Origin: Candidatus Bathyarchaeota archaeon
GTDB taxonomy: Archaea; Thermoproteota; Bathyarchaeia; Bathyarchaeales; SOJC01
Direction of reading: 5' to 3'
Length of the DNA: 64,000 nt
Assembly: GCA_026014805.1 (NCBI GenBank)
Contig: JAOZHR010000002.1
Coordinates: forward strand, 1-64,000
In this document: in pieces, positions 46,060-64,000 of the stretch
Position numbering within the stretch: position 1 is the first letter of the stretch
Layout: each line of letters starts with the position of its first letter
Made by a program: the position numbers and the translations under genes
The notes under the pieces: model-generated
What the model was told of the DNA's origin: nothing
What the model saw: the letters and a program-made list of their open reading frames with translations, nothing else
The model's database searches: none

Positions 46060-46456
46060 CTTTACTCTATTTTGCACGCGCATGAGTGTTGAACGTTGAT
46101 TGATATGTCCCATGCGTTATTCTATAATGCTTTCGTCTTGAAGATATGAATCAGTGATATTCATAATTCAGACTCAGAATCTAACTCCTGGCGCTTAAGT
46201 TGATTTAAGCCTTATCCAGAATGCGAACACGAACAGTAGTATCAGGTTAAATCCTTTGGTATCCTATTTCCACTCTTATACAATATATCCTCTTTAGGAC
46301 GTACCTACTCCGCGTAGGCAGTTCATTTGAGATAAAGAACCATAACATTTCACTGTTGGATTCCAAATCTGAATCTAGAATATTGATAATCAGTATTTTG
46401 ATTTCATAATTGTTAAAGTGTGCCAATGTTGAACAGATACTTGTTGTGTGAGAAGA
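46060..46456. other. Gene-free 0.4-kb intergenic region
   Basis: AT-rich, no frame with a usable start above 30 codons. Begins with ACGCGC at 46070. I see no other structure. Confidence 0.35.
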
Positions 46457-47251
46457 ATGGAATCCTCAACGCTGGCGTATCAGCAGGTTTCACAGCATCT
46501 TGGGCTGTCGGAATATGAGGCAAGGGTTTACGTGTCGCTGGTCACGGGAGGCATTTCTGAGGCTAGAAAACTGAGCATGAGGTGCGGAGTGCCTAGAACG
46601 AAGGTTTACGCCACATTGAAGAAGTTGATGGAAAGCGGTTTGGTTTCTGAACTGCCAGGGAAGCCTCGGAAGTTTGCTCCTACATCTCCTGCAGAAGCTT
46701 TTGAGCAGATTTTGTTGCATTTCAAAGAGAGGACTTCTAATAGTGTAATTTCGCTGATGGAATCCGACAAGGTTGTTTCATTGCTTGAAAAGACCTTTAG
46801 GAAAACGCACTTGACTAACGGACCTCAAAAGGAAGAAGTGTGGATTATTCAGGATCGGTCCGAGATTCTTGGAAAAATTAGAGAAACGTTGTCTGGAGCC
46901 AAGAAAAGCGTTGCTGTCGTAACAACGGAAAACGGCTTCGTATGGTTTTATAAGACTTTTAACAAATTGCTTGACAAGCTGGTTGAGAACGGTGTGAAGG
47001 TTCAGATAGGAACTCCAATTAACTCGCATAATGGTAATCTAGCACGGGAACTCAACTACATATACAAGGTCAAGCACGTCGATGTTGATTCGCCTTTGCT
47101 GTACTTGGGTGTTGATGACCAAACCTTCTTTTTGGCAAGGTTGAACCTAAACAATGTCAACTTGGAGTCTGAAAAGAATCTAGGAGTTTACTGTAACAGT
47201 TCGAATCTACGTGATTTGTTTTCTCTCCTACTTCCCAGATCAGCGAAGTAA
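46457..47251 (+). CDS. TrmB-family transcriptional regulator
   Basis: About 264 aa. The N-terminal winged helix (LGLSEYEARVYVSLVTGGIS ... CGVPRTKVYATLKKLMESGL) is the TrmB sugar-type HTH; the C-terminal part (EVWIIQDRSEILGKIRETLS ... VAVVTTENG ... LLDKLVENGVKVQIGTPIN) is the PLD-like effector domain. A GTG at 46448 is an alternative start. It flanks the chemotaxis region and may control part of it, but no target site is evident. Confidence 0.8.
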   Translation: MESSTLAYQQVSQHLGLSEYEARVYVSLVTGGISEARKLSMRCGVPRTKVYATLKKLMESGLVSELPGKPRKFAPTSPAEAFEQILLHFKERTSNSVISLMESDKVVSLLEKTFRKTHLTNGPQKEEVWIIQDRSEILGKIRETLSGAKKSVAVVTTENGFVWFYKTFNKLLDKLVENGVKVQIGTPINSHNGNLARELNYIYKVKHVDVDSPLLYLGVDDQTFFLARLNLNNVNLESEKNLGVYCNSSNLRDLFSLLLPRSAK

Positions 47252-47332: not shown

Positions 47333-47701
47333 CTATTTCTGGCGTTCGTCTTCTAGTTTGCGTACTCTTGTTTTGATCCATTCGGTCACTTTTCCCTCTG
47401 TCATCTTCTCGGCTTTTTTCTGTTCTTCGAGTTTTTCTTTTATGAGTGCTAACAGCTTTGGGTGTTTGACGGGTTTTATGATGTATGCGTCTGCTCCCAG
47501 ATTTAGGGCTTTGACGGCGTTTTCCAGTGAGGGGTATCCTGTGATCATGATTTTGACCACTTTGAGCAGGGTATTGTGTATTGTTGTGAGTAGTTCGGTG
47601 CCTTCCATATCTGGGAGTTTGATTTCTATCAGCGCCAGGTTGAAGAACTTGGCTTTTGACTTTTGTATTGCTTCTCGTCCGTTTCTCGCGGTGTCACCCA
47701 A
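47333..47701 (-). pseudogene. N-terminally truncated receiver-domain protein with Glu at the phospho-acceptor site
   Basis: 122 aa starting at TTG inside the receiver fold: the first beta strand with the acidic pair is absent. The remainder is good: NLALIEIKLPDMEGTELL (Asp replaced by Glu), MITGYPS (conserved Thr), YIIKPVKHP (conserved Lys), then a charged helical tail. Its 5' end runs into the divergent composite promoter at 47693-47739, whose GTCAC box lies within the first codons. It is either a truncated relic or a phosphorylation-independent receiver translated from a weak start. Confidence 0.55.
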
Positions 47702-47739
47702 CTTCGTTGTTCATGGTTACAGTAGCCTTAGATAATGCC
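47693..47739 (+). promoter_or_regulatory. Composite che-regulon promoter, copy a
   Basis: GTCAC at 47693-47697, 17 bp, then GGTTACAG-TAG-CCTTAGATAATGCC ending at 47739. It drives the AbrB-like/KaiC/V4R operon starting at 47771. It differs from the other copies by one base in the first box (ACAG for ACAC). Confidence 0.75.
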
Positions 47740-47770
47740 GAAGCTTAGTCTATGACAAGGAAACACGCTG

Positions 47771-47962
47771 TTGTTGGATGTGCTGAACGTGGCTGGGATA
47801 AAGCTGAAGCCTATTCGTCTTCGGAAGAGTTTGTATCTGCTGATTCCTATGGAGATTGCTAAGCTGATCGGCGTGACGGATAAAACAAAATTCGTTTTAA
47901 CTCTTAAACATGGCGACGAATACGTCTTAATGTACCATAAAGCCGAGGCCTCGCCTAGCTAA
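47771..47962 (+). CDS. Small AbrB/SpoVT-like protein, first gene of KaiC/V4R operon
   Basis: About 60-63 aa. KPIRLRKSLYLLIPMEIAKL is a swapped-hairpin pattern, followed by IGVTDKTKFVLTL and a basic/acidic tail. TTG start at 47771 (TTG 47774 and GTG 47780 are alternatives). It begins 32 bp after the shared promoter motif. A DNA-binding or oligomerising regulator of the operon is the simplest reading. The next gene starts 22 bp downstream. Confidence 0.55.
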   Translation: MLDVLNVAGIKLKPIRLRKSLYLLIPMEIAKLIGVTDKTKFVLTLKHGDEYVLMYHKAEASPS

Positions 47963-47984
47963 TGTTGGCGGAGGCGGATCTAAG

Positions 47985-48551
47985 GTGGCGATTGAGGAAA
48001 AACTTGCAAAAGTCTCTTCTGGGTCGATTGTGATTTTGGAGTTTCCAGCTGGAGAAAATCAGGTTAAGTTGGCAGCGGATTTTTTGAAGAGTAAGCAGAA
48101 AACTGGCAGTTGTGGCGTGTACGTGTCTTCCAACAGACCTGCAAACAATCTGATTGAGAAAATTAAGGATTATGGATATGATCTGAAGAAACCACTTGAG
48201 GAAGGTCGTGTGTGGGTGGTGGATCTGGTCTCAAAGAATGTTGGCGACGCGGAAGTGAATGGCGTTATCTATGTTTCCTCGGCTTCGGAGCTCTCGGCGA
48301 CGCAGATGGCGATTGAAAAGGCTATAAACCGGATTAAAGGTAGAGATGGCCCAGGTTGGCTTCTCCTCGATTCTATAGCGACCTTGCTGGTTTTTAACAG
48401 TCCTGACTCGCTTCTTGAGTTCATGCACTTTCTTCTTGGCAGACTTAGGGTTTTGGGGTTTGACGGTGTCATCTTTACTGTGCGTGAGGGAATAGATGCG
48501 AAGGTGATCGCGACCATCAGGCAGTTCTGTGATGGAATTATAACATTGTAA
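47985..48551 (+). CDS. Degenerate RecA/KaiC-like protein without Walker A
   Basis: A 188-aa RecA-fold protein. The P-loop position reads SIVILEFPAGENQVKLAADF, with no G-K-T/S, so ATP binding is unlikely. The Walker B strand survives as GWLLLDSIATLLVF, and the final strand is GVIFTVREG. It resembles non-catalytic KaiC/ArlH-type proteins. Paired with the active KaiC-like gene next downstream (16-bp gap), it may form a regulatory hetero-oligomer. Confidence 0.6.
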   Translation: MAIEEKLAKVSSGSIVILEFPAGENQVKLAADFLKSKQKTGSCGVYVSSNRPANNLIEKIKDYGYDLKKPLEEGRVWVVDLVSKNVGDAEVNGVIYVSSASELSATQMAIEKAINRIKGRDGPGWLLLDSIATLLVFNSPDSLLEFMHFLLGRLRVLGFDGVIFTVREGIDAKVIATIRQFCDGIITL

Positions 48552-48567
48552 ATTTGGGCGTGGAAAG

Positions 48568-49278
48568 ATGGTTAATAATAGAGAAAAGGTTTCGACCGGA
48601 ATTTTAAGTTTGGACAAGATACTTAGAGGTGGTTTCAATAGGGGTGACACGATTCTTGTGGCAGGTCAACCTGGTGCTGGAAAAACAACGCTTGGGTTGC
48701 AGTTTTTGTACAGTGGTGCTACGAAATATGGGGAAAACGGCGTCTATGTTACGTTTGTTGAAAGCGTTAAGAAGTTGAAGAGGGATGCGTTGAAGTTCGG
48801 ATGGGACTTTGATAAATTAATGAAGAAAGTTAATTTTCTGGATCTTATGCAGGCCACGGGAGAAAAAGGCTTGGAAGCGAACTTTGCGATTATGATGACT
48901 GAAATTGAGTTGGCGGGTGCAAAGCGTATTGTCATTGACAGTTTGTCGGCGATGACAATTTACATCGAGAATAAGGCAGAGGCTCGAACCTTCGTTGGAA
49001 TGGTTAATAGGCTTCTTGAGAATGCTGGTTGCACGTCTCTTTTGCTTGTTGAGGTGCCTTGGGGGAAAAGTGATATTGGCTCTGGCTTTGAAGAGTTCTT
49101 GGGAGACGGTTTGATAGTGTTAGAATCTACAATCGATGGTTTTAGAGTTAGGAGAATGCTTTTTGTTCCTAAGATGCGTGGCGTTAACCATGATTTGAGT
49201 TGCTATGACTTCTTCATATCTACTGATGGCATCGCTGTGTCGCCGATACCAACATCTAGAAAGAGAAAATGGCTTTGA
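48568..49278 (+). CDS. KaiC-domain ATPase
   Basis: A 236-aa single KaiC domain. Walker A AGQPGAGKTTLGLQFLY (about residues 35-50), Walker B KRIVIDSLSAM (near 130) and the catalytic Glu in YVTFVESVKKL are intact. Single-domain archaeal KaiC homologues act as ATP-driven signalling switches; ArlH of the archaellum motor is one. Here it sits between a degenerate partner and a V4R sensor under the chemotaxis-type promoter, so a sensory output role is inferred. Confidence 0.82.
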   Translation: MVNNREKVSTGILSLDKILRGGFNRGDTILVAGQPGAGKTTLGLQFLYSGATKYGENGVYVTFVESVKKLKRDALKFGWDFDKLMKKVNFLDLMQATGEKGLEANFAIMMTEIELAGAKRIVIDSLSAMTIYIENKAEARTFVGMVNRLLENAGCTSLLLVEVPWGKSDIGSGFEEFLGDGLIVLESTIDGFRVRRMLFVPKMRGVNHDLSCYDFFISTDGIAVSPIPTSRKRKWL

Positions 49279-49290
49279 GGAGAAGTTGGA

Positions 49291-49827
49291 ATGTCTGGAA
49301 AAAATAGTGTGATGTTGGATGCTGAGAAGGGTGAGGCAAGGGCACGTTTGGGAGAGGACTATCGGCGTATGGTGCTCATAGCGTCTGAGGCTTTCGTTAA
49401 GATGATGGAATCGTTGAATGCTTTCGGTTCTGCTGGGTTCACCATGTTTTATATGATGGGACAAGAAAAGGGACGCTATGATGTTTTGAAGGAAATAGAG
49501 ACATTGCGGCAGCATGAAATTTCTTTTACCAAGCGTCAGTTGTTGGATAACATTATTCGTCAGTTTAGGGTTACTGGTTGGGGAGTGCCTAGGGTTCAGA
49601 AGTATGATGAGAAACGGGGGGCCTTGATGATTCTGGTGGAGAATAATCCATTAGTCATTGTGTTAGAAACGCAGGAAAAATCGGAGAAGCCTGTCTGTTA
49701 TTATTTTAGGGGTTATTGGGTTGGTGTTGTTTCGGAGGTTTGGGAGAGAAAGGTAAGTTGTTCTGAGACTAAGTGTATGGGCATGGGAGACCCGTACTGC
49801 GAGTTCAAAATCACTCCTATTCAGTAA
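49291..49827 (+). CDS. V4R-domain sensor protein
   Basis: 178 aa. The C-terminal V4R (4-vinyl reductase-like) domain shows YYFRGYWVGVVSEVWERKVS, then C-x(5)-C-MGMGDPYCEFKI with three Cys, as in small-molecule- or metal-binding V4R domains. The N-terminal helices (EDYRRMVLIASEAFVKMMES) may mediate dimers. Last gene of the operon, 12 bp after KaiC. A second V4R protein is encoded near 59.7 kb. Confidence 0.75.
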   Translation: MSGKNSVMLDAEKGEARARLGEDYRRMVLIASEAFVKMMESLNAFGSAGFTMFYMMGQEKGRYDVLKEIETLRQHEISFTKRQLLDNIIRQFRVTGWGVPRVQKYDEKRGALMILVENNPLVIVLETQEKSEKPVCYYFRGYWVGVVSEVWERKVSCSETKCMGMGDPYCEFKITPIQ

Positions 49828-49887
49828 CATTCAGTTGTAGAGAGATGTCCAGCGGGCGTTCCTTGTTCTTGGATGGCTCCCGTCCAC

Positions 49888-50454
49888 TCAGTTTCTCAAT
49901 TTATCTTTGAATGTTTTTTCGAACATCTCGATTATCTCAAGTAGCTCTCTGTGATGACTCTTCTCATCTCCAACCAATGCGCGAAGAAGTGCTATAGCTC
50001 TTGGATCTTTGATTTGTCCAGCCATCTCCTCATAGGTTTCCTTTAGTCCTTGCTCGAGTTCAAGATGGCTTTTCATTGCGTGATACGTTTCTTCTACATC
50101 CGTGAGGTATATGCGCGGCTTGGTGTTTTCCGGGATGATTACATGTGAAGATATGTGCACCGATTGGTCTATCTCTCCTGTCTCAGTTAAGATTTCTTTT
50201 GTGATTCCCAATATCTTTGTGTGGCGTTCCCCTGCTGAAGATAATCGTTCAAACATTACCTTTGCATGACGATTGCTTGTTTGGTTAGCTAATAGGCCGT
50301 ATCTTTCTATTGTGTAACCTTCGATCTTGGTCCAATATTCAAGAATGTGGGAAATCTTTTCGTATTTGTCGGTGCTCGTGCTAGCGTTTCCAGAGATAAT
50401 GTTCGTAATCTCTTTCGAAGCATCTTTCTCTGTTTCAATAAGTTCTCTAGCCAT
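49888..50454 (-). CDS. Ferritin-like helical-bundle protein with CheC-derived N-terminus
   Basis: 188 aa. Residues 1-26 (ELIETEKDASKEITNIISGN) match the N-terminus of the CheC encoded at 51810 in 16 of 26 positions. The rest is a four-helix bundle of ferritin/rubrerythrin type: EGYTIERYGLLANQ, ERHTKILGITKEIL, LEQGLKETYEEMAG and GDEKSHHRELLEIIE (ExxH). Metal ligands are partly present (ExxH in the last helix). The leader DNA and promoter are also copied from cheC. A stress or redox sensor linked to chemotaxis is possible; iron storage is not supported. Confidence 0.65.
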   Translation of the reverse strand: MARELIETEKDASKEITNIISGNASTSTDKYEKISHILEYWTKIEGYTIERYGLLANQTSNRHAKVMFERLSSAGERHTKILGITKEILTETGEIDQSVHISSHVIIPENTKPRIYLTDVEETYHAMKSHLELEQGLKETYEEMAGQIKDPRAIALLRALVGDEKSHHRELLEIIEMFEKTFKDKLRN

Positions 50455-50500
50455 CTATGTTCCTTCCATTCTAGGATGTCATGATTAAGACTAAGTCGTG

Positions 50501-50548
50501 ACTTTATCTAAAGCTGGTGTAACCCTCTCAGTAACTAGGACAGTGACA
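50501..50548 (-). promoter_or_regulatory. Composite che-regulon promoter, copy b
   Basis: On the minus strand: GTCAC (50548-50544), 18 bp, then GGTTACACCAG-CTTTAGATAAAGTC (50525-50501). It drives the ferritin-like fusion, whose ATG is 46 bp downstream. This is the most diverged copy (CTTT for CCTT, and 18 bp instead of 17). Confidence 0.8.
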
Positions 50549-50825
50549 TGTTGTGAAAAATCTTTGCGTGCGATATTTTCAAAGGCCTCGATACGAAAAT
50601 CATGGCTTTCCCCCTAAGTCTAGAGAGGCGCAGGCTCTTGGGCGAAGGATAAGTGTTTTCAAGCTCCAAGAGTCACGCCTCGAATAGGAGGGAATGCCTC
50701 ATATAAAATGGAACTTCGAAGAGACGTATAAGAATTATGTCCAGCAGCATATCAGATATACATGTTATTTATATGTTATTGTTGCGCACACAGGTTTTGC
50801 TGGAGAAGAAACACGAATTCGGTTG
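50549..50825. other. Intergenic region upstream of the fusion gene
   Basis: A 53-codon plus-strand frame starts at 50694 right after AGGAGGGA and runs into the antisense of cheY (stop 50853). The peptide (HIKWNFEETYKNYVQQHIRY and on) matches nothing I know. The ribosome site makes it worth noting but not calling. Confidence 0.3.
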
Positions 50826-51191
50826 TTACGACATGTTGAATGTCTTTTTTATTAGCTCTGTTATTTTTGCGTCGTCGAATGGTTTAACGATGTAGCCGCT
50901 GATGCCTAATTTCTTGCATCGTTCGACTAGTGGTCCTTGTCCAACTGCTGAGACCACAATTATTTTGCTTTCTAAACCGTCTTTTCTCAAATTGTAAAGG
51001 ACAGTTTCACCGTCAATATCTGGTAGGACTATGTCTAGGAGAATTAGGTCTGGCTTTTCTTTTTTAGCTATCTCCATTGCCTGTTTTCCGTTTGACGATT
51101 CAATAACCGATGTTTGTCCAAGAACTGATAGTTTGTCTTTCAGAATCCTTCGCATGAAAGAAGAGTCGTCCACAATCAATACTTTTTTCAT
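50826..51191 (-). CDS. cheY: Chemotaxis response regulator CheY
   Basis: A 121-aa single receiver domain. Acidic pair VDDSSF (Asp8, Asp9), phospho-acceptor Asp53 in LILLDIVLPDIDG, the switch Ser in VVSAVGQG and Lys in YIVKPFDDAK. It receives phosphate from CheA and signals to the archaellum motor, in archaea through adaptor CheF. It lies 13 bp after cheC on the same strand, so kinase output and its phosphatase are co-transcribed. Confidence 0.92.
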   Translation of the reverse strand: MKKVLIVDDSSFMRRILKDKLSVLGQTSVIESSNGKQAMEIAKKEKPDLILLDIVLPDIDGETVLYNLRKDGLESKIIVVSAVGQGPLVERCKKLGISGYIVKPFDDAKITELIKKTFNMS

Positions 51192-51204
51192 TGTTACTCC
51201 CTTC

Positions 51205-51810
51205 TCATTCCCGATTTGCCTTTTTTATGAGCGATAGTGCACCCTTTATTCGTAGGAAGAAAAGGAACCAAACGTTCGCTTTGGCAATATCTTTTACGGC
51301 AAGTTCATTTCTGACTGCTAATACGGGACCTTCAATAGGTCGAGCCAACAGCACATCCAAGACTGCATCTCCGATTGTAGAAAACAGTTTGACATCTCCC
51401 AACTGCATCTTAATGTCCATGAAGTGTGCTATCGCTTCCAAATAGCACTCAAAAACAGTATTGCCCATTTGTAGGAGTGCTTTTTGGCCTTCTTCTGATA
51501 ACCATTTTGTTGTTCCCGTTTTCTTATTCTGCAACAAATCTGCCATTTTCAATGCACTTTCTGAGCCGAAGACTAACATAACACTTCCAACAGTCTCACC
51601 TTTTAACTTAGCAAATGTGCAAACAGCAATTCCTTCTGGAGCTTCAGCATATTCTTTTATCTTGGCGTGAGAGATTATTGTGTAGTCGGGCACAGTTAAC
51701 ATGATTTCTTGTCCAGTCTTTTCTGAGAGAAGAGTGCTGGCGTTTCCAACAGCAATGTTCGTCATCTCCTTCAGAAAGTCTTTCTCTATTTCAGTAAGTT
51801 TTTCTACCAT
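51205..51810 (-). CDS. cheC: CheY-P phosphatase CheC
   Basis: 201 aa from the ATG at 51810 (GGAAGGA site, conserved in the duplicated leader near 50454); an ATG at 51825 adds five residues. The first phosphatase signature is intact: E-x-x-N-x(22)-P in KEMTNIAVGNAST ... TVPD. The second (LLQMGNTVFECYLEAIAHFM, then V at the Pro position) is altered, Gln for Glu and Val for Pro. It dephosphorylates CheY-P and usually binds CheD. Confidence 0.88.
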   Translation of the reverse strand: MVEKLTEIEKDFLKEMTNIAVGNASTLLSEKTGQEIMLTVPDYTIISHAKIKEYAEAPEGIAVCTFAKLKGETVGSVMLVFGSESALKMADLLQNKKTGTTKWLSEEGQKALLQMGNTVFECYLEAIAHFMDIKMQLGDVKLFSTIGDAVLDVLLARPIEGPVLAVRNELAVKDIAKANVWFLFFLRIKGALSLIKKANRE

Positions 51811-51855
51811 CCATGTTCCTTCCATTTTAGGATGTCTTGATTAGAACTATGCTAT

Positions 51856-51902
51856 GGCTATATCTAAGGCTAGTGTAACCATCAACAACGGAAATGGGTG
51901 AC
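51856..51902 (-). promoter_or_regulatory. Composite che-regulon promoter, copy c
   Basis: On the minus strand: GTCAC (51902-51898), 17 bp, then GGTTACACTAG-CCTTAGATATAGCC (51880-51856). The cheC ATG lies 45 bp downstream. It drives cheC-cheY. Confidence 0.85.
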
Positions 51903-51924
51903 ACCTCTAACAAACCTTGCCACC

Positions 51925-52398
51925 TCAAATCTTTACTCTAACTGTTACGATTCCACTTGCTGTGTCAAACTCCACAGACCTGCCAACACTACCCCCCACG
52001 ACCTCTCCAGCCAGAGAGATTCCTTCTTTCCTCAGCTTCTCCTTTACAGCCAGAACGTTCTCTTCACCAGTCTTCAAGCTTTTATGTCCAAGAGTCGGAA
52101 ACATGTTTGCTCCACCGACAATCTTTCCGGTCATATTTCGTCTTTGAGAACCCAACGATTCCATTTTCCTAATCATATGATCTATAGCCAAGTCGGCAAA
52201 CTTGAATGGATTACTAGTCAGCCCATGTTCTGTGCTGTCGGGCAGCATGGCATGGGCCATTGCTCCAACTTTGAGCATGGGGTCGTAGAGCGTTACGACT
52301 ATGCAAGAGCCTACTCCAAGCGCCACTAGCCTGTTGGGCGTCTGGGTGGCTTTTACTTGAGCCGTGTCCACTACAATGTCTTCTAGGATGTTATGCAA
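51925..52398 (-). CDS. cheD: Chemoreceptor deamidase CheD
   Basis: 157 aa with the CheD catalytic set: ALGVGSCIVVTLYDP (Cys), GAMAHAMLP (His) and the Thr/Ser-bearing HGLTSNPFKF region; IVGGANMFP is the family block. CheD deamidates receptor glutamines and regulates CheC. Its start overlaps the end of the upstream receiver-CheC gene by 8 bp, consistent with coupled translation and a direct CheC-CheD partnership. Confidence 0.9.
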   Translation of the reverse strand: MHNILEDIVVDTAQVKATQTPNRLVALGVGSCIVVTLYDPMLKVGAMAHAMLPDSTEHGLTSNPFKFADLAIDHMIRKMESLGSQRRNMTGKIVGGANMFPTLGHKSLKTGEENVLAVKEKLRKEGISLAGEVVGGSVGRSVEFDTASGIVTVRVKI

Positions 52399-53389
52399 CT
52401 ACCTTTGCCCCGAGTGCTCTCAGCATTGCGTGAGCTTCCTTCAATGAGAACAGGAGGAAGAAGTATCCCATGACCTTGATTTTTGCTCTAGTGCTTAACT
52501 CCACTTGTATTATCAATGCTCGCTCAGCTTTTTGCCCAAAGGCTACGGCTACGTTGTCGAGCAAGGCCCCGACCATACCATGTGCGAACTCGGGAACATG
52601 TTCAACAAGATGCATTCCCAATGTGTGCGACAAAGCAGTTAAACAGTTTCCAGCTAGAATATTCCCAGCTTCACTCAAAGCAGATTTGTCCATCTCATCA
52701 AGCTCCTTTGTAGTTCCCGGCTCCTTTTTCAACAGCACGTTCACTAGTATGAAAGCACTTTTCTCTGGAAAAATCATCAACAATGAACCCGAAAGGTCTC
52801 CAGTTACCGGAAGATATATCCCACTGACCAACGTTTCCCTATCTCCAACCAACTTCGGAAGGTCATCTAAAGAAGTCATCGTTGCCGTTAGTAGCTTCAC
52901 CTTGACCGTTTGCCCAATCATCTTTGAAAGAGCCGTGCCTGCATGCTGCGCACCGATGTGCCCAACCTCTCTCAACGCATCTTCCTCCAATTTAGTCAAT
53001 TTCGCCGTTCGTTTTCTCTTTCCTTTTGCACGAAGGGTCTCCTCCACAGTGTCCACTAACTGTCTTTCATCAAAAGGCTTAACAATGTACCCAGCGGAAC
53101 CAAGTATGTTGCATGTCTTCATAGTCTTTGCTTGCCCTACAGCTGTAAGCATTATCACCTTTGCATTCTCATCTATGTTCATGATCCTTTTGAGCACTTC
53201 AGTTCCGTCTAAGCCAGGCACTATTATGTCCAAAAGTACCACGTCCGGCTTTTCTGTTTCATATTTCCTCAATGCTTCCTCGCCGTTCTCTGCTTCAATC
53301 ACCTCTCGGAAACCCCGACCATTCAAAGCATTCCGTACAATCCGCCTCGTAAACGCCGAATCATCAACGACCAATATTTTCGTACCCAT
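52391..53389 (-). CDS. CheY-like receiver fused to a CheC-type phosphatase domain
   Basis: 332 aa from the ATG at 53389, preceded by AAGGAGGTGA; an upstream ATG at 53425 is less likely. Residues 1-120 are a receiver with VVDDSAF, Asp in VVLLDIIVPGLDG and YIVKPFDE. Residues 130-332 are a CheC/FliY-like module. Its first signature is lost (REVGHIGAQHAG, His for Asn); the second is intact (LSEAGNILAGNCLTALSH ... HVPE, E-x-x-N-x(22)-P). It may dephosphorylate itself or CheY-P and act as a phosphate sink. Followed by cheD with an 8-bp overlap. Confidence 0.85.
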   Translation of the reverse strand: MGTKILVVDDSAFTRRIVRNALNGRGFREVIEAENGEEALRKYETEKPDVVLLDIIVPGLDGTEVLKRIMNIDENAKVIMLTAVGQAKTMKTCNILGSAGYIVKPFDERQLVDTVEETLRAKGKRKRTAKLTKLEEDALREVGHIGAQHAGTALSKMIGQTVKVKLLTATMTSLDDLPKLVGDRETLVSGIYLPVTGDLSGSLLMIFPEKSAFILVNVLLKKEPGTTKELDEMDKSALSEAGNILAGNCLTALSHTLGMHLVEHVPEFAHGMVGALLDNVAVAFGQKAERALIIQVELSTRAKIKVMGYFFLLFSLKEAHAMLRALGAKVVA

Positions 53390-53442
53390 TTTTTCACCTC
53401 CTTGTTTTCCATCGCCTGTTTTCATGTCAAGAATTAAGCTGC

Positions 53443-53489
53443 GGCTTTATCTAAGGCTGGTGTAACCGCTTCTCTGCTCGAAGAGTGAC
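53443..53489 (-). promoter_or_regulatory. Composite che-regulon promoter, copy d
   Basis: On the minus strand: GTCAC (53489-53485), 17 bp, then GGTTACACCAG-CCTTAGATAAAGCC (53467-53443). The start codon of the receiver-CheC fusion (53389) is 53 bp downstream. It lies between cheA and this gene, giving the receiver-CheC/cheD pair its own promoter. Confidence 0.85.
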
Positions 53490-53503
53490 ATGCGCATACC
53501 TTC

Positions 53504-55138
53504 TCAGCTAACATTAGCTGCATACCTCTGTTCCTCAACCAACGAATCAAACAAACTATTCACATCCAAAATCAAAGCAGGCTTCCCATCCCCCAAAATC
53601 GTAAACCCGGCAAAAACCCTACTCTGCCTCACAAACCTGTCCAAAGGCTTAACAATAATATCTTGCTTATCCAAGAGAGCATCAACACCTAAACTGAGAA
53701 ACTCGTTCTCACGATTCACAAGCACTATCAACACACTCTTCTCTCCCTCATGAGGAAAACCAAAAAAATCCGACAACCTCAACAACGGAACATTCCCCTC
53801 AGACAAAACAGCTACCTCACGACCAAGCATCCTCTTAACATCTTTAGCCTTCACCCTGACCGACCTCACAACACTGGTCAGAGGAACAGCATAGATTTCC
53901 TCTCCCACCTTCGTCAACAAAGCTGAGATAATGGCCAACGTAAGCGGAAACCTCAACGTAACCTTCATGCCCTTTCCAGCTTGAGTGCCCACTTGAACCG
54001 TTCCGCCAAGAGACTCAACCGTTCTCTTAACCACGTCAAGCCCAACACCCCTACCAGAAACCTCAGTAACCTTCTCAGCTGCACTAAACCTGTTATCAAA
54101 CAACAATGCCACAGTTTCTTCATAACCTAAGCGTGCTGCTTCCTTTCCGCTTAGTATCCCCCTATCCACTGCAACCCTCTTCACCTTCTCCACACTGACC
54201 CCTCTACCGTCATCCTCCACTTCAATGAGGGCATAATCCTTCTCTCTTCTAGCGATCAACCTGACTGTTCCAACCGCTGGTTTTCCCAATCTCTCTCTTT
54301 CGTGTGGCACCTCTATGCCATGATTCACCGCGTTCCTCAGCAAATGAACAAGCGGCTCTCCCAACTTATCCACAATCTTTCTGTCAAGCTCAATCTCACC
54401 GCCCTCAAGCACTAAAATAACCTGTTTCTGCTCTCTTCTCGCCAAATCCCGAACCATTCTCGGAAACCTACGAAATATCTGCCCAACAGGAACCAAACGA
54501 GCCTGCATAACATTGAACTGCAAGTCAGAAACCATCCTGCCCAAAGCATCTAAAGCGCCGGGCATATCTCCAAACTTTTCTGAGGCATACAGCTGATCCA
54601 ACAACATCTTGTTAACCAACAACTCCTCTACGAGACCCGCCAGCGTATCCAATGTCTCAACGTCAACCTTTATCTCACGAATCTTCTCAATAGACGAAGG
54701 CTTCTCAGCTAATCTTACACCCTCAGGAGCTCCTGAACCCAGTTTTTCACCTGGAGCAGACAAAAGACGATTCAGCTTCGACAAGGATCCAGCTACATCC
54801 GCTTCATCATTACCACCTGAAATCCTTCTGAGAGACAGCTCCAAATTATCAAAACACTCAAAGAAAACTTCAACCATCTCAGACGTCAGCTTTGCGTCCT
54901 TCTTTCTCACCTTATCCAGAACGTCTTCAATCGCATGACACAGCCCTGCAAGCTTATTATAGTTCATAGTGGCTGCCATGCCCTTCAAACTGTGAGCCGC
55001 CCTAAACATCTCATCAATAGACTTCAAGTCAGCCGGGTTCTTCTCCAACTTCAATAAGGACTCATTCAACAACTGCAGGTTCTCTTTCGCTTCGCTCAAG
55101 AACATATCTTTATACTTCGACACGTCCATAGTTGGCAC
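53504..55138 (-). CDS. cheA: Chemotaxis histidine kinase CheA
   Basis: A 544-aa kinase. The P1 Hpt domain has the phospho-His in FRAAHSLKGMAATM (His49). P3 dimerisation (IKVDVETLDTLAGLVEELLV) starts near 158; the P4 kinase has LRNAVNHGIEVPHERER, VEDDGRGV and GRGVGLDVVKRTVESLGG; the P5 CheW-like domain fills the last 140 residues. The P2 response-regulator docking domain seems absent: only about 40 residues of Gly/Ser-rich linker separate P1 from P3. It starts 9 bp after cheB. Confidence 0.92.
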   Translation of the reverse strand: MPTMDVSKYKDMFLSEAKENLQLLNESLLKLEKNPADLKSIDEMFRAAHSLKGMAATMNYNKLAGLCHAIEDVLDKVRKKDAKLTSEMVEVFFECFDNLELSLRRISGGNDEADVAGSLSKLNRLLSAPGEKLGSGAPEGVRLAEKPSSIEKIREIKVDVETLDTLAGLVEELLVNKMLLDQLYASEKFGDMPGALDALGRMVSDLQFNVMQARLVPVGQIFRRFPRMVRDLARREQKQVILVLEGGEIELDRKIVDKLGEPLVHLLRNAVNHGIEVPHERERLGKPAVGTVRLIARREKDYALIEVEDDGRGVSVEKVKRVAVDRGILSGKEAARLGYEETVALLFDNRFSAAEKVTEVSGRGVGLDVVKRTVESLGGTVQVGTQAGKGMKVTLRFPLTLAIISALLTKVGEEIYAVPLTSVVRSVRVKAKDVKRMLGREVAVLSEGNVPLLRLSDFFGFPHEGEKSVLIVLVNRENEFLSLGVDALLDKQDIIVKPLDRFVRQSRVFAGFTILGDGKPALILDVNSLFDSLVEEQRYAANVS

Positions 55139-55147
55139 TCACACCTT

Positions 55148-56191
55148 CTACAGAAGTTGAATTATCCCCTCGCTAATCTTAAACACGGGAAGAACATGAT
55201 CTGCGTCTCCCTTCTCGATGACTTCCCTAGGCATACCGAAGATCAGAGATGTAGCCTCATCTTGCGCAATCGTCCTGCCGTTTCTTCGTTTAATAGCCCT
55301 CATACCCTCTGCTCCGTCCCTGCCCATGCCAGTCAAAATGATTCCAACAGCGTTTTCACCATAGACTTCTGCAACCGACTTCATGGTCACATCAACAGAA
55401 GGCCGCAGACTGTGAACAAGAGGACCCCTGTTTAAGCGGATAACGCCCTTCGTTACGCCATCTGTCATTGTTTTCTTCACGGTCATGTGAAAATCTCCAG
55501 GGGCAACGAACGCTTTTCCAAGCTCTATCAGGTCTCCTTCTTCGGCTTCTTTCACCTCGATTTCAGACATTCGATTCAACCGTTCTGCTAGGGATTTAGT
55601 GAATTTCGCAGGCATGTGTTGAACGATAAGGATTGCAGCTGGAAAGTTTGAAGGAAGCTCTGACAGAATCAGCTCCAAAACAGATGGTCCACCAGTGGAT
55701 GATCCAATGACAAACACTTTCTCCCTAACGACGAGACCAGGCGCCAAAAACTGCTTGACTCGTTCTCTGGCAAGTATAGATTTAATCTTCCGAATGTTAA
55801 CCGTTGAAGCTCTTTTTATCTTCTCTGTAAGCTTGTCTTTAACCTTTCCAATGTCAACGGAGACAGCGCCAGACGGTTTAAGAACAAAATCCACGGCACC
55901 AGCCTCCAGACACTCTATGGTTGCAGCTGTCCCCTCCTGGGTATAGGCGCTTAACATTATCACGAGAGTAGGAAATTCCTTCATGATACGCTTAAGGGTG
56001 CGCAACCCGCCCAAGCCAGGCATAAGATAATCCAAAGTGATCACATCCGGTCTTAAAGTCGACAATTTTTCCACGGCATCGTTGCCATCTTTTGCAACTC
56101 CAACAACCTCGATTTCAGGGTCAGAATTCAACATATCAGCAACTAACGTTCTCATGAAGAATGAATCATCAACTACCAGCACCTTTACCAT
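55148..56191 (-). CDS. cheB: Receptor methylesterase CheB
   Basis: 347 aa: receiver (VVDDSFFMRTL; Asp in VITLDYLMPGLGG; K in FVLKPSGAV), a linker, and the methylesterase domain with the catalytic triad in GSSTGGPSVLEL (Ser), VQHMPAKFTKSLAERLN (His) and GMGRDGAEGM (Asp). It demethylates receptor glutamyl esters when phosphorylated by CheA. No CheR is found in the window, so the methyltransferase must lie elsewhere. Confidence 0.92.
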   Translation of the reverse strand: MVKVLVVDDSFFMRTLVADMLNSDPEIEVVGVAKDGNDAVEKLSTLRPDVITLDYLMPGLGGLRTLKRIMKEFPTLVIMLSAYTQEGTAATIECLEAGAVDFVLKPSGAVSVDIGKVKDKLTEKIKRASTVNIRKIKSILARERVKQFLAPGLVVREKVFVIGSSTGGPSVLELILSELPSNFPAAILIVQHMPAKFTKSLAERLNRMSEIEVKEAEEGDLIELGKAFVAPGDFHMTVKKTMTDGVTKGVIRLNRGPLVHSLRPSVDVTMKSVAEVYGENAVGIILTGMGRDGAEGMRAIKRRNGRTIAQDEATSLIFGMPREVIEKGDADHVLPVFKISEGIIQLL

Positions 56192-56344
56192 TTCTGTTAT
56201 CCCCCGAAAGCCTGTTGCTCATCTCGTAACCCCAACAAAAAAAGGGAAAATGTTGTCGATTGAAACCGCCCATTGAGAAAATATTTCTCACTTACCCTTT
56301 GGCTTTTCAACAGGTTTTTCCTTTGCAGCTCTGCGGGTTGCACG

Positions 56345-57115
56345 CTATAGAGGTTTACGTTCTGTTGTTTCTGCTACTTTCTTCTCTGGTTTCAACTGCT
56401 CTTCTTTTGGCAACGTTTCCTTAAGCGCTTGCCACTCTGTTGTTTCCTTTTCTTTTGGCAGCTTTTCCTCTGGCATTTCTTGTTTTGGTGTTAGTATTTC
56501 TATTTCCATCGATTTCTCTGTTTCTTCAGCCAGCTTTTCTTCAGGAGCCTTTTCTTTCTTCCTTGGCTTGACTCTGCGATATTCTCTTGCTGATGTCCTC
56601 GCTAACTCGATGAGTTCTTTTTCAGAGAGAACCTTTTCCAGGTCAAGCAGTATTATTAACTTCTCTCCTAAGGTTCCTATGCCCTTTACGTAGTCAATGC
56701 CTATTTTTTTGGTTATCATCTCTGGAGGCAGCTTGATGTCTCCTTTGGGCAACCTCAGTACGTCGGTTACTTCGTCTACGAGCAACCCAAAGGTGCCATC
56801 GTCAATCATTGCTATCACAATGTGCTTACCCGTGTGTTCTTCGTCTTCTCTTTTCAGCAGGAACCTCTTTTCGAGGTCTATCACACCGACGATTTTGCTC
56901 CTAAGATTGATGACGCCCTTCAAAAAATCTGGAGAGTTAGGGATCATCGTTATCGTTCCTGTTTTGACGATTTCCCTAACATCTAGGATCCCGACGCCGT
57001 ATTCTTCGTTGCCGAGGGTGAAGACCACGAACTGAGTTGTGTCTCTTTCTTCGATTGCTGGTTCTTCCACGATTGCCGCTACTTCTTGCTTCGTCCTTGC
57101 TACCGTCCTCGACAT
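56345..57115 (-). CDS. cheW: Coupling protein CheW with charged C-terminal tail
   Basis: 256 aa. Residues 25-165 are the CheW SH3-like double barrel (FTLGNEEYGVGILDVREIVK, IPNSPDFLKGVINLRSKIVG, DEVTDVLRLP). The remaining 90 residues are a Glu/Lys/Pro-rich, probably disordered tail, unusual for CheW. The annotated stop is TAG; the same frame continues for 18 codons of identical Lys/Glu/Pro/Arg composition to a TGA at 56288. It begins 1 bp after the mcp gene, bridging receptor and CheA. Confidence 0.88.
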   Translation of the reverse strand: MSRTVARTKQEVAAIVEEPAIEERDTTQFVVFTLGNEEYGVGILDVREIVKTGTITMIPNSPDFLKGVINLRSKIVGVIDLEKRFLLKREDEEHTGKHIVIAMIDDGTFGLLVDEVTDVLRLPKGDIKLPPEMITKKIGIDYVKGIGTLGEKLIILLDLEKVLSEKELIELARTSAREYRRVKPRKKEKAPEEKLAEETEKSMEIEILTPKQEMPEEKLPKEKETTEWQALKETLPKEEQLKPEKKVAETTERKPL

Positions 57116-57116
57116 T

Positions 57117-59426
57117 CTAGTCAGCCTCTATCTTTCTCTTCTTCGCCATTTTCCTAGAGCTGACCCTTTCCGCCACCCTTGCCTCTCCAGCCTCTTGGAC
57201 TACCTTAAACAGTTGCAGTGATCCGCTGAGTTCCTTTGCCATAGCACCCAATTCTTGGGAAGACGAAGTCATCTGTTGCATAGCAGCGGTTTGCTGTTGC
57301 ATGGAGGCAGACATTTTTTGTGCACTTGCACTGTTCTGTTCGGATATAGACGCTACTTCGTCTATTGCCTTTGTTACCTGCTGGGACCCAGCTGATTGTT
57401 GTTGACTGGCGGCGCTTATCTCTTGAGCTTTAGCCGTTATCTCTTGTGCTCCAGCGGAGATCTGGTCTAGGATAGACAGAGCGGTATCAACGATTTTGAG
57501 GCTTTCACCAACTTGTTCTGTTCCCTGTGTCATGCCAGACACTGCGCTACCTGACGCCTTTCTTACACCACCGACTAGTCCCTCGATTTCGCCAGTCGCC
57601 GTCTTTGACCTTTCAGCCAACTTCCTAACTTCATCCGCAACAACTGCGAATCCTCTGCCCGCTTCTCCTGCCCGAGCCGCTTCTATTGCCGCGTTTAAAG
57701 CTAGCAGATTGGTTTGATCCGCGATATCGTTGATCGTTCCCACGATGGCTGCGACTTCTTGTGCGCTCTCATCCACTTTCTGAACTGTATCTGTGTTAGC
57801 TCTCACAATTTCGTCGATTGCCTTCAGTCTCGTAGCCGCTTCTTGTCCTGCTTCAGTGCCCTTTGCAGCAAGCTTAGCCGCTTCCGCTGTTGTGTTTGCC
57901 GCTGATCGAGCGTTGGTTGCACCTTGCTGGATGCTGGTGGATAGATCTGCGATGGCCTTTGTGGTTTCTTCTAGCCGTTTGGATTGTGTCTGGGCTCCCT
58001 CAGCTACTTGTCCAACGATGTCTGCTACTTGGCGCAGAGCAGCGTTGACCTGCGTTGAAGAAGAAGCCACTTGGTCGGCTCCCACTGTGACTCTCTCGCC
58101 CACAACCCTAGCCTTTCCGATGAGTGCACCTATATCGCCCACCGTTTGGTTAATGGTTTCTCCTATAGCTTTGAAATCGCCCGCTGCCTTCTCCAGAGCC
58201 ACCTTTTGAGTTAGGTCGCCCCTAGACATCGCAACGAGAACCCTTTGAACCTCTCTAATTGGAACAATTATCGAGTCGATCAAGCTGTTCAGTGTGTCTA
58301 CAAGGTCTTTCCATGAACCCGTAACACCTGGCACAGATGCCCTCTCCGACAAGTTTCCTTCTTCTCCTGCTACTCTCGCAACTCTGCTAACTTCGCCAGC
58401 CAGCCTGTTTAGGCCGTCTAGAGTCTTGTTGATGGTGTCAGCCATCACCTTGAAGTCACCAGCAACCTCCAGCTCAAACTTCTCCGTCAATTTTCCTTCA
58501 GATATGGCGGTGAGAATTCTGCTAACCTCAAGCGTCGGCTTAGCAACTGACTCAATCAAATAGTTCAGCGTGTCCACAAGGTCCTTCCAAGATCCAGAAA
58601 CACCTTCAACCGTTGCTCTCTCTGAAAGATTACCCTCAGTGCCAGCCACCTTTGCTACCCTGCTAACCTCAGATGCCAACCTGTTCAAGTCATCAACCAT
58701 ACCATTGATTGCATCGGCCAGAGCCTTTACTTCCCCGGCTGCGGGTACCTCCACCTTCTGTGTCAGATCACCCTTTGATATGGCCACAGTGACCTTAGCG
58801 ATTTCTCTCACTTGTACAGTAAGTGCGTCCACCAATCCGTTCAATGTGTCAACAACGTCCTTCCAAGAACCACCGACACCTGGAACCTCCGCGTGCACTC
58901 CGAGTTTTCCTTCAACACCCACTTCCTTGGCGACTCTTGACACTTCTGACGCCAATGTGTTGAGGGAATCCACCATACTGTTGACTACACCAGCTAAGAC
59001 CTCGAAGTCTCCGGCTACTTTTATTGTCACTTTCTGTGTCAAGTCACCTTTCGCAATGGCGGTGACTATTCTGCCAACTTCTTGCACTGGTCCAACGACA
59101 GACTCAAGCAAAGTGTTTAGCGTGTCCACGATGTCTTTCCAACTGCCTTTGACACCTTCCACCGTAGCTCTCTCACTGAGTTTGCCTTCAACTCCAGCAA
59201 CTTTGGCAACACGAGAAACTTCGTCAGCTAATCCACCGATCAATTCTACCATGCCATTGTACGAATCTGCTAGCTCACCGAAGATGTCCTCTTGCTCCTT
59301 TCGTATCTGCACTGTTAAGTCGCCTTTCCTGACGGCTTCTAAGCCTTCCAATAGCCTCTGCAACTGCCTCGTTGAATACTCATCCATCGAACTTGTTTCC
59401 ACCATACTTGTTTTCGACTTAGACAC
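57117..59426 (-). CDS. Soluble methyl-accepting chemotaxis protein with tandem poly-HAMP repeats
   Basis: 769 aa without any membrane helix, so a cytoplasmic receptor. From about residue 65 to 433 there are four tandem repeats of about 92 residues, each with a SRVAKVAG-x-EG block, a GSWKD-hV-DTLN block and a KGDLTQKV block, a HAMP-array pattern. The C-terminal signalling hairpin has the tip [19 protein letters not shown] and methylation helices on each side. No separate ligand-binding domain is visible, so input may come through the HAMP array or a partner such as a V4R protein. First gene of mcp-cheW-cheB-cheA. Confidence 0.9.
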
Positions 59427-59479
59427 TTTTCTAACATCTCCATTTTTTGAAATTTTACCGATGTCAAAGACTATGCTAT

Positions 59480-59526
59480 GGCTATATCTAAGGCTGGTGT
59501 AACCACTAGTATATCCTACCAGTGAC
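59480..59526 (-). promoter_or_regulatory. Composite che-regulon promoter, copy e
   Basis: On the minus strand: GTCAC (59526-59522), 17 bp, then GGTTACACCAG-CCTTAGATATAGCC (59504-59480). The mcp start is 54 bp downstream. It presumably drives mcp-cheW and probably cheB-cheA, since no second copy lies before cheB. Confidence 0.85.
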
Positions 59527-59678
59527 TATTCAGAATTCATATCCAAAAATCAATAGCCAAAATACACATCCTCAACGAAATCGCCACCTAAAAAATCAAG
59601 CTGAATCAGTTTCGACTCCGACAACGATTCAGAAGTCTGCAGAATCGTTAATTCTGCATGTTGAACACATGGTTAGCA

Positions 59679-60164
59679 ATGAGCGCACTTTCAATAGATA
59701 GCAAAGCCATCCGTACGAAAAAGGACAGTTTAGGCGAGGGTGTCCTCTTCAGTTTTGAAACCTTAAGCGAGATCGAATCAGCCTTAGAAGAAATCTTTTC
59801 ACCCTCAGCAGCCTCCGTGATCCTACGTACAGCGGCTAAGAGAAGCGGTGAAAAAACATGCAAGAAAATCATGAAAAACGCTGGAACCAAAGAGAAAGCG
59901 CTAAATCATCTTGTTAAACTAGAAAACGATGAAAACTGGGGAAAATCATCCTTCCAGAACATCGACTTTGCGAAAAGACCTGGGAAAGTCATAATCATCG
60001 ATTCATTTGAAACAGTAGCCCGCAAAACCACTCAGCCATGTTGCCACCTCTTCAGAGGTTTCCTGGAAGGCTTCCTCTCAGAGCTGTGCGGAAAACCAAT
60101 CGAAATTACTGAGGAAAAATGCGCTGGAAGAGGAGACGAACACTGCAAGTTCATATTTGAATAG
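59679..60164 (+). CDS. V4R-like domain protein
   Basis: About 161 aa (ATG 59658 is an alternative start). N-terminal VLFSFETLSEIESALEEI, a helical middle and a C-terminal V4R core: CCHLFRGFLEGFLSELCGKP, then EEKCAGRGDEHCKFIFE. The Cys pattern (C-A-G-x-G-D-x-x-C) matches the other V4R protein. It lies between the mcp and filament gene promoters. None of the composite promoters faces it, so its expression is separately driven or from a weak site I cannot see. Possible sensory partner for the soluble receptor. Confidence 0.65.
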   Translation: MSALSIDSKAIRTKKDSLGEGVLFSFETLSEIESALEEIFSPSAASVILRTAAKRSGEKTCKKIMKNAGTKEKALNHLVKLENDENWGKSSFQNIDFAKRPGKVIIIDSFETVARKTTQPCCHLFRGFLEGFLSELCGKPIEITEEKCAGRGDEHCKFIFE

Positions 60165-60254
60165 CACAAACTTGCATTTGTCTGTTATAGTTTAACATCA
60201 AGACGAGCTTAGTTGACTACAAACTTCCATTCTCAAGTCAAATACGCAGAAACT

Positions 60255-60301
60255 GTCACTGACCCTCGTAACCAATGGTTACACTAGCCTTAGATAATGC
60301 C
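60255..60301 (+). promoter_or_regulatory. Composite che-regulon promoter, copy f
   Basis: GTCAC at 60255-60259, 17 bp, then GGTTACACTAG-CCTTAGATAATGCC (60277-60301). The pilin/archaellin ATG follows 35 bp downstream. This copy links the filament genes with the chemotaxis units. Confidence 0.85.
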
Positions 60302-60335
60302 AAGGCATAATCAAAAGGTAGAGTGTGAACAAAAC

Positions 60336-60776
60336 ATGAAGATATGGAAGAAACTGTTGAGGGCAAAGAGAGCGTTTTCTCCTGTAATTGCATCTTTGAT
60401 TCTAATGTTGCTCGCAGTTGCCGCTGGCGTCGTCGTCTACTCGTACACCATGGGATGGCTCGGAGGAGCCACAACGACTGCTGGAGGCACACAAGGAAAA
60501 CTGCAATTTGACTCCATCTATGCAGATGCAACGGCAGATGAAATATACATATACATCAGAAACACTGGCGGCAAGGACATCTTGCTTTCAAAGACATATA
60601 TTGACGGAACCGACACAGCGAACGAAACCGCGATTGCTGCTGCAGGTGTTCCACTGACTGTGCAATCTGTGGCGTACCTAAATGTCACGAAGACCATGAC
60701 CACAGGTTATTTCTACGAAGTGAAAGTGACCTGTAAAGACGGTACTACAATCTCTCAATCCGTAGAAGCCAAATAA
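60336..60776 (+). CDS. Archaellin/type IV pilin-like protein 1
   Basis: 147 aa from the ATG at 60336. The N-terminus has a class III signal: basic KKLLRAKRAF followed by the hydrophobic SPVIASLILMLLAVAAGVVV helix, the core of archaellins and archaeal pilins. The rest is a small beta domain (LQFDSIYADATADEIYIYIR; YFYEVKVTCKDGT). After cleavage by a prepilin/preflagellin peptidase it would assemble into the filament core. It lies directly behind promoter copy f. Confidence 0.8.
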   Translation: MKIWKKLLRAKRAFSPVIASLILMLLAVAAGVVVYSYTMGWLGGATTTAGGTQGKLQFDSIYADATADEIYIYIRNTGGKDILLSKTYIDGTDTANETAIAAAGVPLTVQSVAYLNVTKTMTTGYFYEVKVTCKDGTTISQSVEAK

Positions 60777-60836
60777 GAATCCCTTTCTCTTTCCCCTCTA
60801 TTCGCAGCTTCTTGAACGAGAGGTAGGCTGAAGAAG

Positions 60837-61298
60837 ATGTTTCGCTCCCTTTTTCATGACAAGCGAGGAGTAAGCGAAGTTGTTGCAAGTTTAATGATGA
60901 TCCTAATAGTTACAATCGCCGGCACAGCACTGTACGCTTACAGTGTGAACTCACTTGGTTCATCAGGAAGCTCCTTTCAACTGGAGACAGCCAAGAAGGA
61001 AGAACTAGCTCGAGAACGATTATCAATAACCACAGTATGGTGGAACGTCTCAACTGACTACATGAACATAACAGTTCTAAACTACGGAAAAATCGAACTT
61101 GTCATCGACGCCGTGTACATAGACGGCACACAAGTTTCCGCCTCAGCCTACACAGACGGAAGAGGGGAAACCACAGCAAAGGGAAGCCTTGTTTCTGTCA
61201 AATTCACTTCACCAGTCCCGATCACAGTAGATCAAACCTACGAGATAACAGCTGTCAGCGAGCGGGGAAGCAGAGATGTGGTGTACTGGGAAGCTTAG
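60837..61298 (+). CDS. Archaellin/type IV pilin-like protein 2
   Basis: 153 aa with class III signal peptide FHDKRGVSEVVASLMMILIV (KRG before SEVV, the classical cleavage context). A beta domain follows (TTVWWNVSTDYMNITVLNYG, an archaellin-like strand pair). It is 60 bp after pilin 1. Its 3' end overlaps the next gene by 23 bp. A minor filament subunit or cap is possible. Confidence 0.78.
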   Translation: MFRSLFHDKRGVSEVVASLMMILIVTIAGTALYAYSVNSLGSSGSSFQLETAKKEELARERLSITTVWWNVSTDYMNITVLNYGKIELVIDAVYIDGTQVSASAYTDGRGETTAKGSLVSVKFTSPVPITVDQTYEITAVSERGSRDVVYWEA

Positions 61299-63126: not shown

Positions 63127-63132
63127 GAAAAG

Positions 63133-64000
63133 ATGAGCAAGACCTCTATCAACCAACAACGCATTCTCTCTCGATTCCAGAAGTTGATCAGCAAAATCAA
63201 AGCGAAAGTGTCTTTCATCAACAAACGACTTCACAAGCTGAGTAGAAACGCAAAGAGATTATTAATCATCAACACTGCGAAAATCAAAATGGGTACACTC
63301 AAGCAACACATTGACACTATTGCAAAAAGCGTAGTGGCCAAACTAAGAAAACTAGGAATCCCCGTCGATTTTTGGAGGCTCAGTCTCGAAAACAAACCTC
63401 ACACATCTCAACCACAAAAAGCTCTGCTTAAAGAAACAGAATCATCGGCGCGGGCGCAACCGCTCGCCTTTAAGGAATTCTACGCGGTTAATGCTCCATT
63501 CGGATACGTGGGGATAGACGTCAACAAGGAAACTGGAAAACTTCAGTATCTAACCGTTGAACCAACAATGGACGAACACGAGAAACAAACTCTCAGAAGA
63601 CTCAAAACAATCATAAAGGAAGAGGCTAACGTTCCCTTATTCATTCTCAAGGACGAAACTCTCACAGAAGACTATCTAACAAATCAAATCAAACGAGCCA
63701 TGAAAACCTTCAAACTAAAGATCTCCGAAGACTCAGTTGAAAAATTCATCTACTACATGAAAAGAGACTTCCTCGGCTACGGCATCCTCGACATCCTCAT
63801 CCGAGACCCAAACATCGAAGACATCAGCTGCAACGGCACAGAAATTCCAATCTATGTTTGGCACAGATACCACGAGTCAATTCCCACCAACGTCATATAC
63901 CACTCAAAAGAAGAATTAGGCTCCTTCATCACACGACTAGCCTACAAAGCAGGACACCAAATATCAGTTTCAAGGCCAATCCTTGAAGGAGCCCTTCCCG
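63133..64000 (+). CDS. Type IV pilus/archaellum secretion ATPase, N-terminal part (runs off window)
   Basis: The ATG at 63133 opens a frame continuing to the last base. After a basic, helical N-terminal 75 residues (FQKLISKIKAKVSFINKRLH), a conserved part begins: FYAVNAPFGYVGID, FLGYGILDILIRDPNIEDIS, SFITRLAYKAGHQISVSRPI then LEGALP. These are the N-terminal blocks of ArlI/GspE-type assembly ATPases. The Walker motifs lie beyond the window. Adjacency (6 bp after the large pilin) shows the genes form an assembly operon. Confidence 0.85.
   Translation, partial: MSKTSINQQRILSRFQKLISKIKAKVSFINKRLHKLSRNAKRLLIINTAKIKMGTLKQHIDTIAKSVVAKLRKLGIPVDFWRLSLENKPHTSQPQKALLKETESSARAQPLAFKEFYAVNAPFGYVGIDVNKETGKLQYLTVEPTMDEHEKQTLRRLKTIIKEEANVPLFILKDETLTEDYLTNQIKRAMKTFKLKISEDSVEKFIYYMKRDFLGYGILDILIRDPNIEDISCNGTEIPIYVWHRYHESIPTNVIYHSKEELGSFITRLAYKAGHQISVSRPILEGALP

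Follow-up and report, generated by a model that had tools for sequence, protein, structure and literature searches.

Six copies of a putative composite promoter element were identified in the window (the whole 64,000-nucleotide stretch of DNA analyzed here), all of them within one gene cluster and all reading toward a start codon. The units led by these copies consist almost entirely of chemotaxis, KaiC/V4R, or pilin/archaellin-type genes, and we consider it probable that the shared promoter subjects the six units to a single transcription factor dedicated to them, more likely an activator than a repressor. The element marks this one gene cluster rather than a genome-wide regulon. How archaea regulate their motility genes is known for only a few groups in culture. 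In the present genome, what appears to be a compact regulon, in which a single composite promoter precedes the chemotaxis, KaiC/V4R, and filament units, could be recognized from sequence alone.

Architecture of the element and the genes behind it

The six copies were found at the positions and on the strands that an earlier note on this DNA had listed, and their alignment contained 28 invariant columns in about 75. Each copy has the order GTCAC (box 1), spacer, GGTTACA-NN-AGC-N-TTAGATA (box 2, GGTTACA..AGC, followed by a TATA-like sequence), and a weaker GCWTART, with GTCAC, GGTTACA, AGC, and TTAGATA invariant in 6/6 copies. Five copies have 17 bp between GTCAC and box 2, and the copy at 50548 has 18 bp, as previously described; the centers of GTCAC and GTTAC, which the earlier note took as possible half-sites of an activator, lie 23 bp (24 in one copy), or about 2.2 turns, apart. 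Within GCWTART, which the earlier note had given as weak downstream conservation (GC-A/T-TA-A/G-T), the C, T-A, and T are invariant and the remaining positions weaker. A common box sequence with a GCC end had been claimed for all copies; the invariant boxes bear this out, but the copy at 47693 reads GGTTACAG, in which the eighth base of GGTTACAC is G, and the copy at 50548 has CTTTAGATA in place of CCTTAGATA and a terminal GTC. The distance from the end of the element to the most likely start codon, previously put at 32 to 54 bp, is corrected to 34 to 53 nt, always in the sense orientation. For copy 1 this start codon is a GTG at about 47783, belonging to a 59-codon open reading frame (ORF) and not to the KaiC gene itself. 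Copies 3 and 4 lie 15 to 23 bp past the stop of the gene before them, which makes them promoters internal to a series of genes with the same direction.

Table 1. Copies of the element and genes of the cluster, with positions in the window
Feature	Position	Strand	Score and context
Copy 1 (GTCAC-17-GGTTACAGTAGCCTTAGATAATGCC)	47693..47739	+	68.6 bits; upstream of AbrB-like ORF/KaiC/KaiC/V4R unit
TATA-like TTAGATA of copy 1	47728..47734	+	Same register in all copies
AbrB/MazE-fold-like protein, 59 aa	47783..47962	+	First ORF behind copy 1
KaiC/ArlH-like ATPase	47985..48551	+	
KaiC ATPase	48568..49278	+	
V4R-domain protein	49291..49827	+	
Ferritin/rubrerythrin-like protein	49888..50454	-	
Copy 2 (18-bp spacer)	50501..50548	-	62.1 bits; upstream of ferritin/rubrerythrin-like gene
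CheY	50826..51191	-	
CheC/CheX-like phosphatase	51205..51810	-	
Copy 3	51856..51902	-	69.9 bits; between CheD stop and CheC/CheX-like gene (then CheY)
CheD	51925..52398	-	
Receiver domain fused to CheC	52391..53389	-	
Copy 4	53443..53489	-	66.3 bits; 15 bp past CheA stop, upstream of receiver-CheC and CheD
CheA	53504..55138	-	
CheB	55148..56191	-	
CheW	56345..57115	-	
MCP with several HAMP_2 domains	57117..59426	-	
Copy 5	59480..59526	-	65.9 bits; upstream of MCP-CheW-CheB-CheA
Copy 6	60255..60301	+	63.9 bits; upstream of pilin/archaellin-like genes, then ArlI-like and ArlJ-like genes
Archaellin/type IV pilin-like protein	60336..60776	+	
Two more pilin/ArlF-like genes	60837-61298, 61276-63126	+	

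The units themselves (chemotaxis, KaiC/V4R, ferritin-like, and filament genes) are as the earlier note had stated when it proposed a common promoter ahead of them, and the element is absent elsewhere in the genome. The only MCP found in the genome and its only strong CheA match both fall in the cluster. CheA, CheB, CheW, CheY, CheD, and two CheC types are all present there; no CheR was seen among the cluster ORFs (47700-66065; the contig ends at 66065). The MCP has four HAMP_2 stretches and no transmembrane segment obvious by eye, which raises the possibility of a soluble receptor. The V4R gene at 59658 is the only unit-starting gene of the cluster without a copy in front; its product (59658-60164, + strand, between copies 5 and 6) is related to the V4R part of MsvR and has no HTH. 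Weak similarity of the ferritin-like protein to the encapsulin cargo EncB was also observed.

Exclusivity and distribution

Allowing ≤3 mismatches, the 20-mer GGTTACACYAGCCTTAGATA matched at 6 places in the window, against none in 100 dinucleotide shuffles. The pattern GTCACN{15,20}GGTTACANNAGC matched exactly six times in the whole 1.79-Mb genome, each time in the cluster, and the reversed control of the two-box pattern had no match anywhere in the genome. GTCAC-(16-18)-GGTTAC was likewise absent from a 375-kb sample of the remaining genome. Using a profile built from the six copies, those six scored 62 to 70 bits, and the next best site in the genome reached 15.9 bits, with no copy outside the cluster above that value. 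Random scatter of copies, which the earlier note had set against its reading, was not seen, as the genome's six are all upstream of cluster genes. The weight-matrix scan that it had proposed for this and related genomes gave only these six sites, all in the sense orientation and confined to the cluster, but no carrier among the related genomes examined, which leaves the element without a phylogenetic footprint.

In other genomes of the order, nothing scored above 18.6 bits in the profile scan. No second carrier emerged when the order and a phylum sample were scanned by pattern and by profile, only scattered weak matches that were mostly chance-like, and 20 che regions of the order, searched de novo, contained no comparable repeated promoter element. 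Scanning about 85,000 species with the exact pattern returned one other match, a single intergenic copy of 25 bits in Ca. Bathyarchaeota CSMAG_2653 (L127:483-521). Its neighbors are aminoacyl-tRNA synthetase and ribosomal protein genes, with >110 bp to the next ORF and no chemotaxis genes nearby, and it was rejected as a true relative of the element since chance suffices to explain it (about ten random matches expected by a uniform-base estimate). One match on a viral contig falls within a coding frame and was also set aside.

The cluster is itself isolated among close relatives. CheA had no match at an E value of 1e-40 in other members of the same genus or family, and the nearest CheA proteins in the class, 46% identical, are from other families. 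Third-position GC is 0.46 in the cluster (47693-64000) versus 0.41 in the sampled genome. The higher third-position GC and the missing CheA in the genus and family fit either acquisition from outside or differential loss.

Promoter features and proposed regulation

A profile of the genome's own promoters was obtained by expectation-maximisation on 231 upstream regions outside the cluster. The ordinary promoter has an A-rich BRE (AAA..) followed by CTTAAAT, and TTAGATA (CTTAGATA) occupies the register of this TATA box, in agreement with the TATA-like box of the earlier note. TTAGATA scored at the 60th to 95th percentile for the TATA part of the profile, and its center lies 43 to 62 nt upstream of the start codon (background TT position, median of -46). 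The expected transcription start is predicted about 26 nt past the TTAGATA center, leaving leaders of roughly 17 to 36 nt. Box 2 is on or just before the BRE position, where its end, ACACYAGC, replaces the A-rich BRE. Compared with the best composite sites of other genes, the BRE part of the copies ranked at the 0 to 8th percentile; with background sites picked by TATA score alone, it ranked at the 37th to 59th percentile (strong-TATA sites) or the 42nd to 66th (all sites). Whether the BRE part looks weak, as would fit a promoter dependent on an activator, thus varies with how the background sites are picked, and under the unbiased choice it is unremarkable. A special extra TFB was rejected: the genome encodes two TFB proteins, as do most relatives, which makes a second set of basal factors unlikely. 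The TFB genes also mark the host as an archaeon, and its gene content points to Bathyarchaeia/Thermoproteota.

In the arrangement that we propose, TTAGATA would act as the TATA box. Box 2 would span about -43 to -30 relative to the expected start, which puts it on the BRE or directly above it; box 1 would lie near -62, about two turns above box 2, and GCWTART would form a start-proximal element. Both boxes would be contacted by one protein, probably as a dimer or a pair of dimers, and the bound factor would recruit TFB/TBP, leading to coexpression of the receptor, kinase, adaptation proteins, KaiC/V4R module, and filament genes. Both the transcription starts and the binding protein we infer from the sequence, as we do activation over repression. 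Activation is favored because of the position of the boxes and by precedent, the sites of EarA, TFB-RF1, and CsmR all being found just above BRE/TATA. Points that weigh against the proposal are the lack of a carrier among relatives, the recent duplication of two copy pairs, and the V4R gene at 59658, which belongs to the cluster but has no copy ahead of it.

The same regulon could instead be governed by a repressor, with box 2 covering the BRE and blocking TFB so that the cluster is off until release. Box 2 does overlap or touch the BRE position next to a good TATA box, and the first protein behind copy 1 is AbrB-like, a fold that includes several repressors, from which autoregulation would follow. 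Two indirect points make repression unlikely, namely, that -62 for GTCAC is a typical activator distance and that BRE bases differing from the genome consensus fit a promoter needing help.

Duplication and selection among the copies

Excluding the boxes, spacer identity between copies averaged about 23%, which is random level, except between copies 1 (47693) and 3 (51902), in which 13 of 17 spacer bases are common. Copies 2 (50548) and 3 share a homologous leader and first ∼27 codons, and the ferritin-like gene at 49888-50454 bears the start of the CheC-like gene at 51205-51810 (MARELIETEKDASKEITNIISGNAS versus MVEKLTEIEKDFLKEMTNIAVGNAS). After the TATA box, copies 3 and 5 have the same sequence for about 17 bp. 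The GTCAC of copy 1 coincides with the break of a response-regulator ORF (47333-47701, - strand). This ORF lacks the first 26 receiver-domain profile positions, has an intact homologue in a relative (L168: about 220-650), and is probably a pseudogene that promoter insertion or a rearrangement interrupted.

By these comparisons, the copy pairs 47693/51902 and 50548/51902 do show recent duplication, and the number of independent copies is therefore below six; part of the similarity between copies is local duplication. The duplications look like promoter capture inside the cluster, and the ferritin-like gene is, judging from its borrowed start, a gene birth through capture of promoter and start. 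The cluster would then represent a case where local duplication appears to have handed promoter copies to new genes.

The shared spacer, leader, and post-TATA bases and the exact start of copy 1 at the cut of the response-regulator gene would also be compatible with local promoter duplication in the absence of any dedicated factor, only the basal function of the copied core promoter having been kept. We regard this explanation as improbable, since GTCAC is invariant at a fixed distance despite an adjoining spacer that is random in the other pairs, and ten box 2 positions (GGTTACA and AGC) are invariant although ordinary promoters are A-rich just before TATA. Because the boxes are identical while the spacers match at random level, the boxes are under selection.

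Two further explanations are very unlikely. An RNA leader with riboswitch-like or translational control, in place of promoter DNA, could draw on a 4-bp hairpin (GGUU-ACACY-AGCC) that is possible in all copies, but Rfam gave no match to the element, folding energies of the copies were like those of shuffles (z, -1.6 to +1.5) with almost no covariation, and a TATA-like sequence lies within the element. A target of recombination or insertion with several copies in the cluster (a mobile-element end or integration site) would suit the gene break at copy 1 and the restriction to one cluster, but hardly the constant orientation to start codons, the random spacer within a conserved unit, and the finding of no inverted repeat ends and no transposase or integrase. 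Within the limits of sequence evidence, there is good support for a shared, regulated promoter.

Candidate regulators

By position, the AbrB-like ORF (47783-47962) is the best local candidate regulator, albeit a weak one. It had a weak PDB sequence match (C56; E value, 0.0028), and Foldseek matches to its low-confidence model (pLDDT, 61) were headed by AbrB/MazE/SpoVT folds, none below an E value of 0.09; the AbrB/MazE-like assignment of the 59-aa product is correspondingly tentative. TrmB at 46448-47251, adjoining the cluster, is another weak candidate, because its ortholog (57%) is present, in another context, in a relative without CheA. Rather tentatively, the cluster may have its own master regulator of motility and chemotaxis, in a lineage outside Euryarchaeota and with no relation to EarA, to CsmR, or to the Arn network of Sulfolobus. 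Such a protein, possibly the AbrB-like one, would act at the two-box promoter of all six units and move together with the cluster as one self-contained module. The element offers a precise DNA bait for finding such a new archaeal regulator.

Comparison with known archaeal regulons

The earlier note knew of no described archaeal regulon with this signature. The sequence is indeed unrelated to the CsmR site, but CsmR of Haloferax volcanii controls a comparable regulon (PMC13286277). The site of CsmR, a 13-kDa Lrp/AsnC-like protein with 65 peak-associated genes, is the semi-palindromic TATCA(N4)TGATA, which adjoins the TATA box in promoters of archaellum and chemotaxis units (PMC13286277). In both systems several separate promoters of interspersed units would answer to one factor, archaellum and chemotaxis units in Haloferax and the six che, KaiC/V4R, and pilin/archaellin-like promoters here, for which the factor is putative; the Haloferax circuit also includes the KaiC-like CirA, and KaiC genes are present in this cluster. 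The element here differs in its unrelated sequence, its two boxes, and its six sites in one cluster. TATCA(N4)TGATA occurs in none of the six copies, and among the proteins examined here we saw no Lrp/AsnC-like gene of the CsmR type.

EarA, known from Methanococcus and Thermococcales/Pyrococcus, is an activator with sites directly upstream of BRE/TATA in the arl promoter, consisting of 6- to 8-bp repeats before one arl promoter and placed nine nt above the BRE in Thermococcales (PMC5512572, PMC10665913). Its core TACA(T/C) resembles the TTACAC of box 2. Neither the EarA motif A(C/G)(C/G)TACA(T/C) nine nt above the BRE nor repeated TACATA was found in the copies, in which only TACAC matches and the preceding GGT differs. 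In contrast to EarA sites, one TACAC touching the BRE is combined here with GTCAC 23 bp above, at six promoters and in a lineage probably outside Euryarchaeota.

TFB-RF1 of Pyrococcus recognizes the palindromic TCTGAANTTCAGA at two transport operons (PMC5937170), unrelated in sequence and function to the element described here. Its promoters combine, at a fixed spacing, an activator site, a poor BRE, and a good TATA box; the likeness lies in this conserved triad, with the limit that the BRE percentile of the present copies depends on the choice of background. Set beside CsmR and EarA, precedents whose sites are unrelated, the two-box element probably represents a local, cluster-specific form of motility control.
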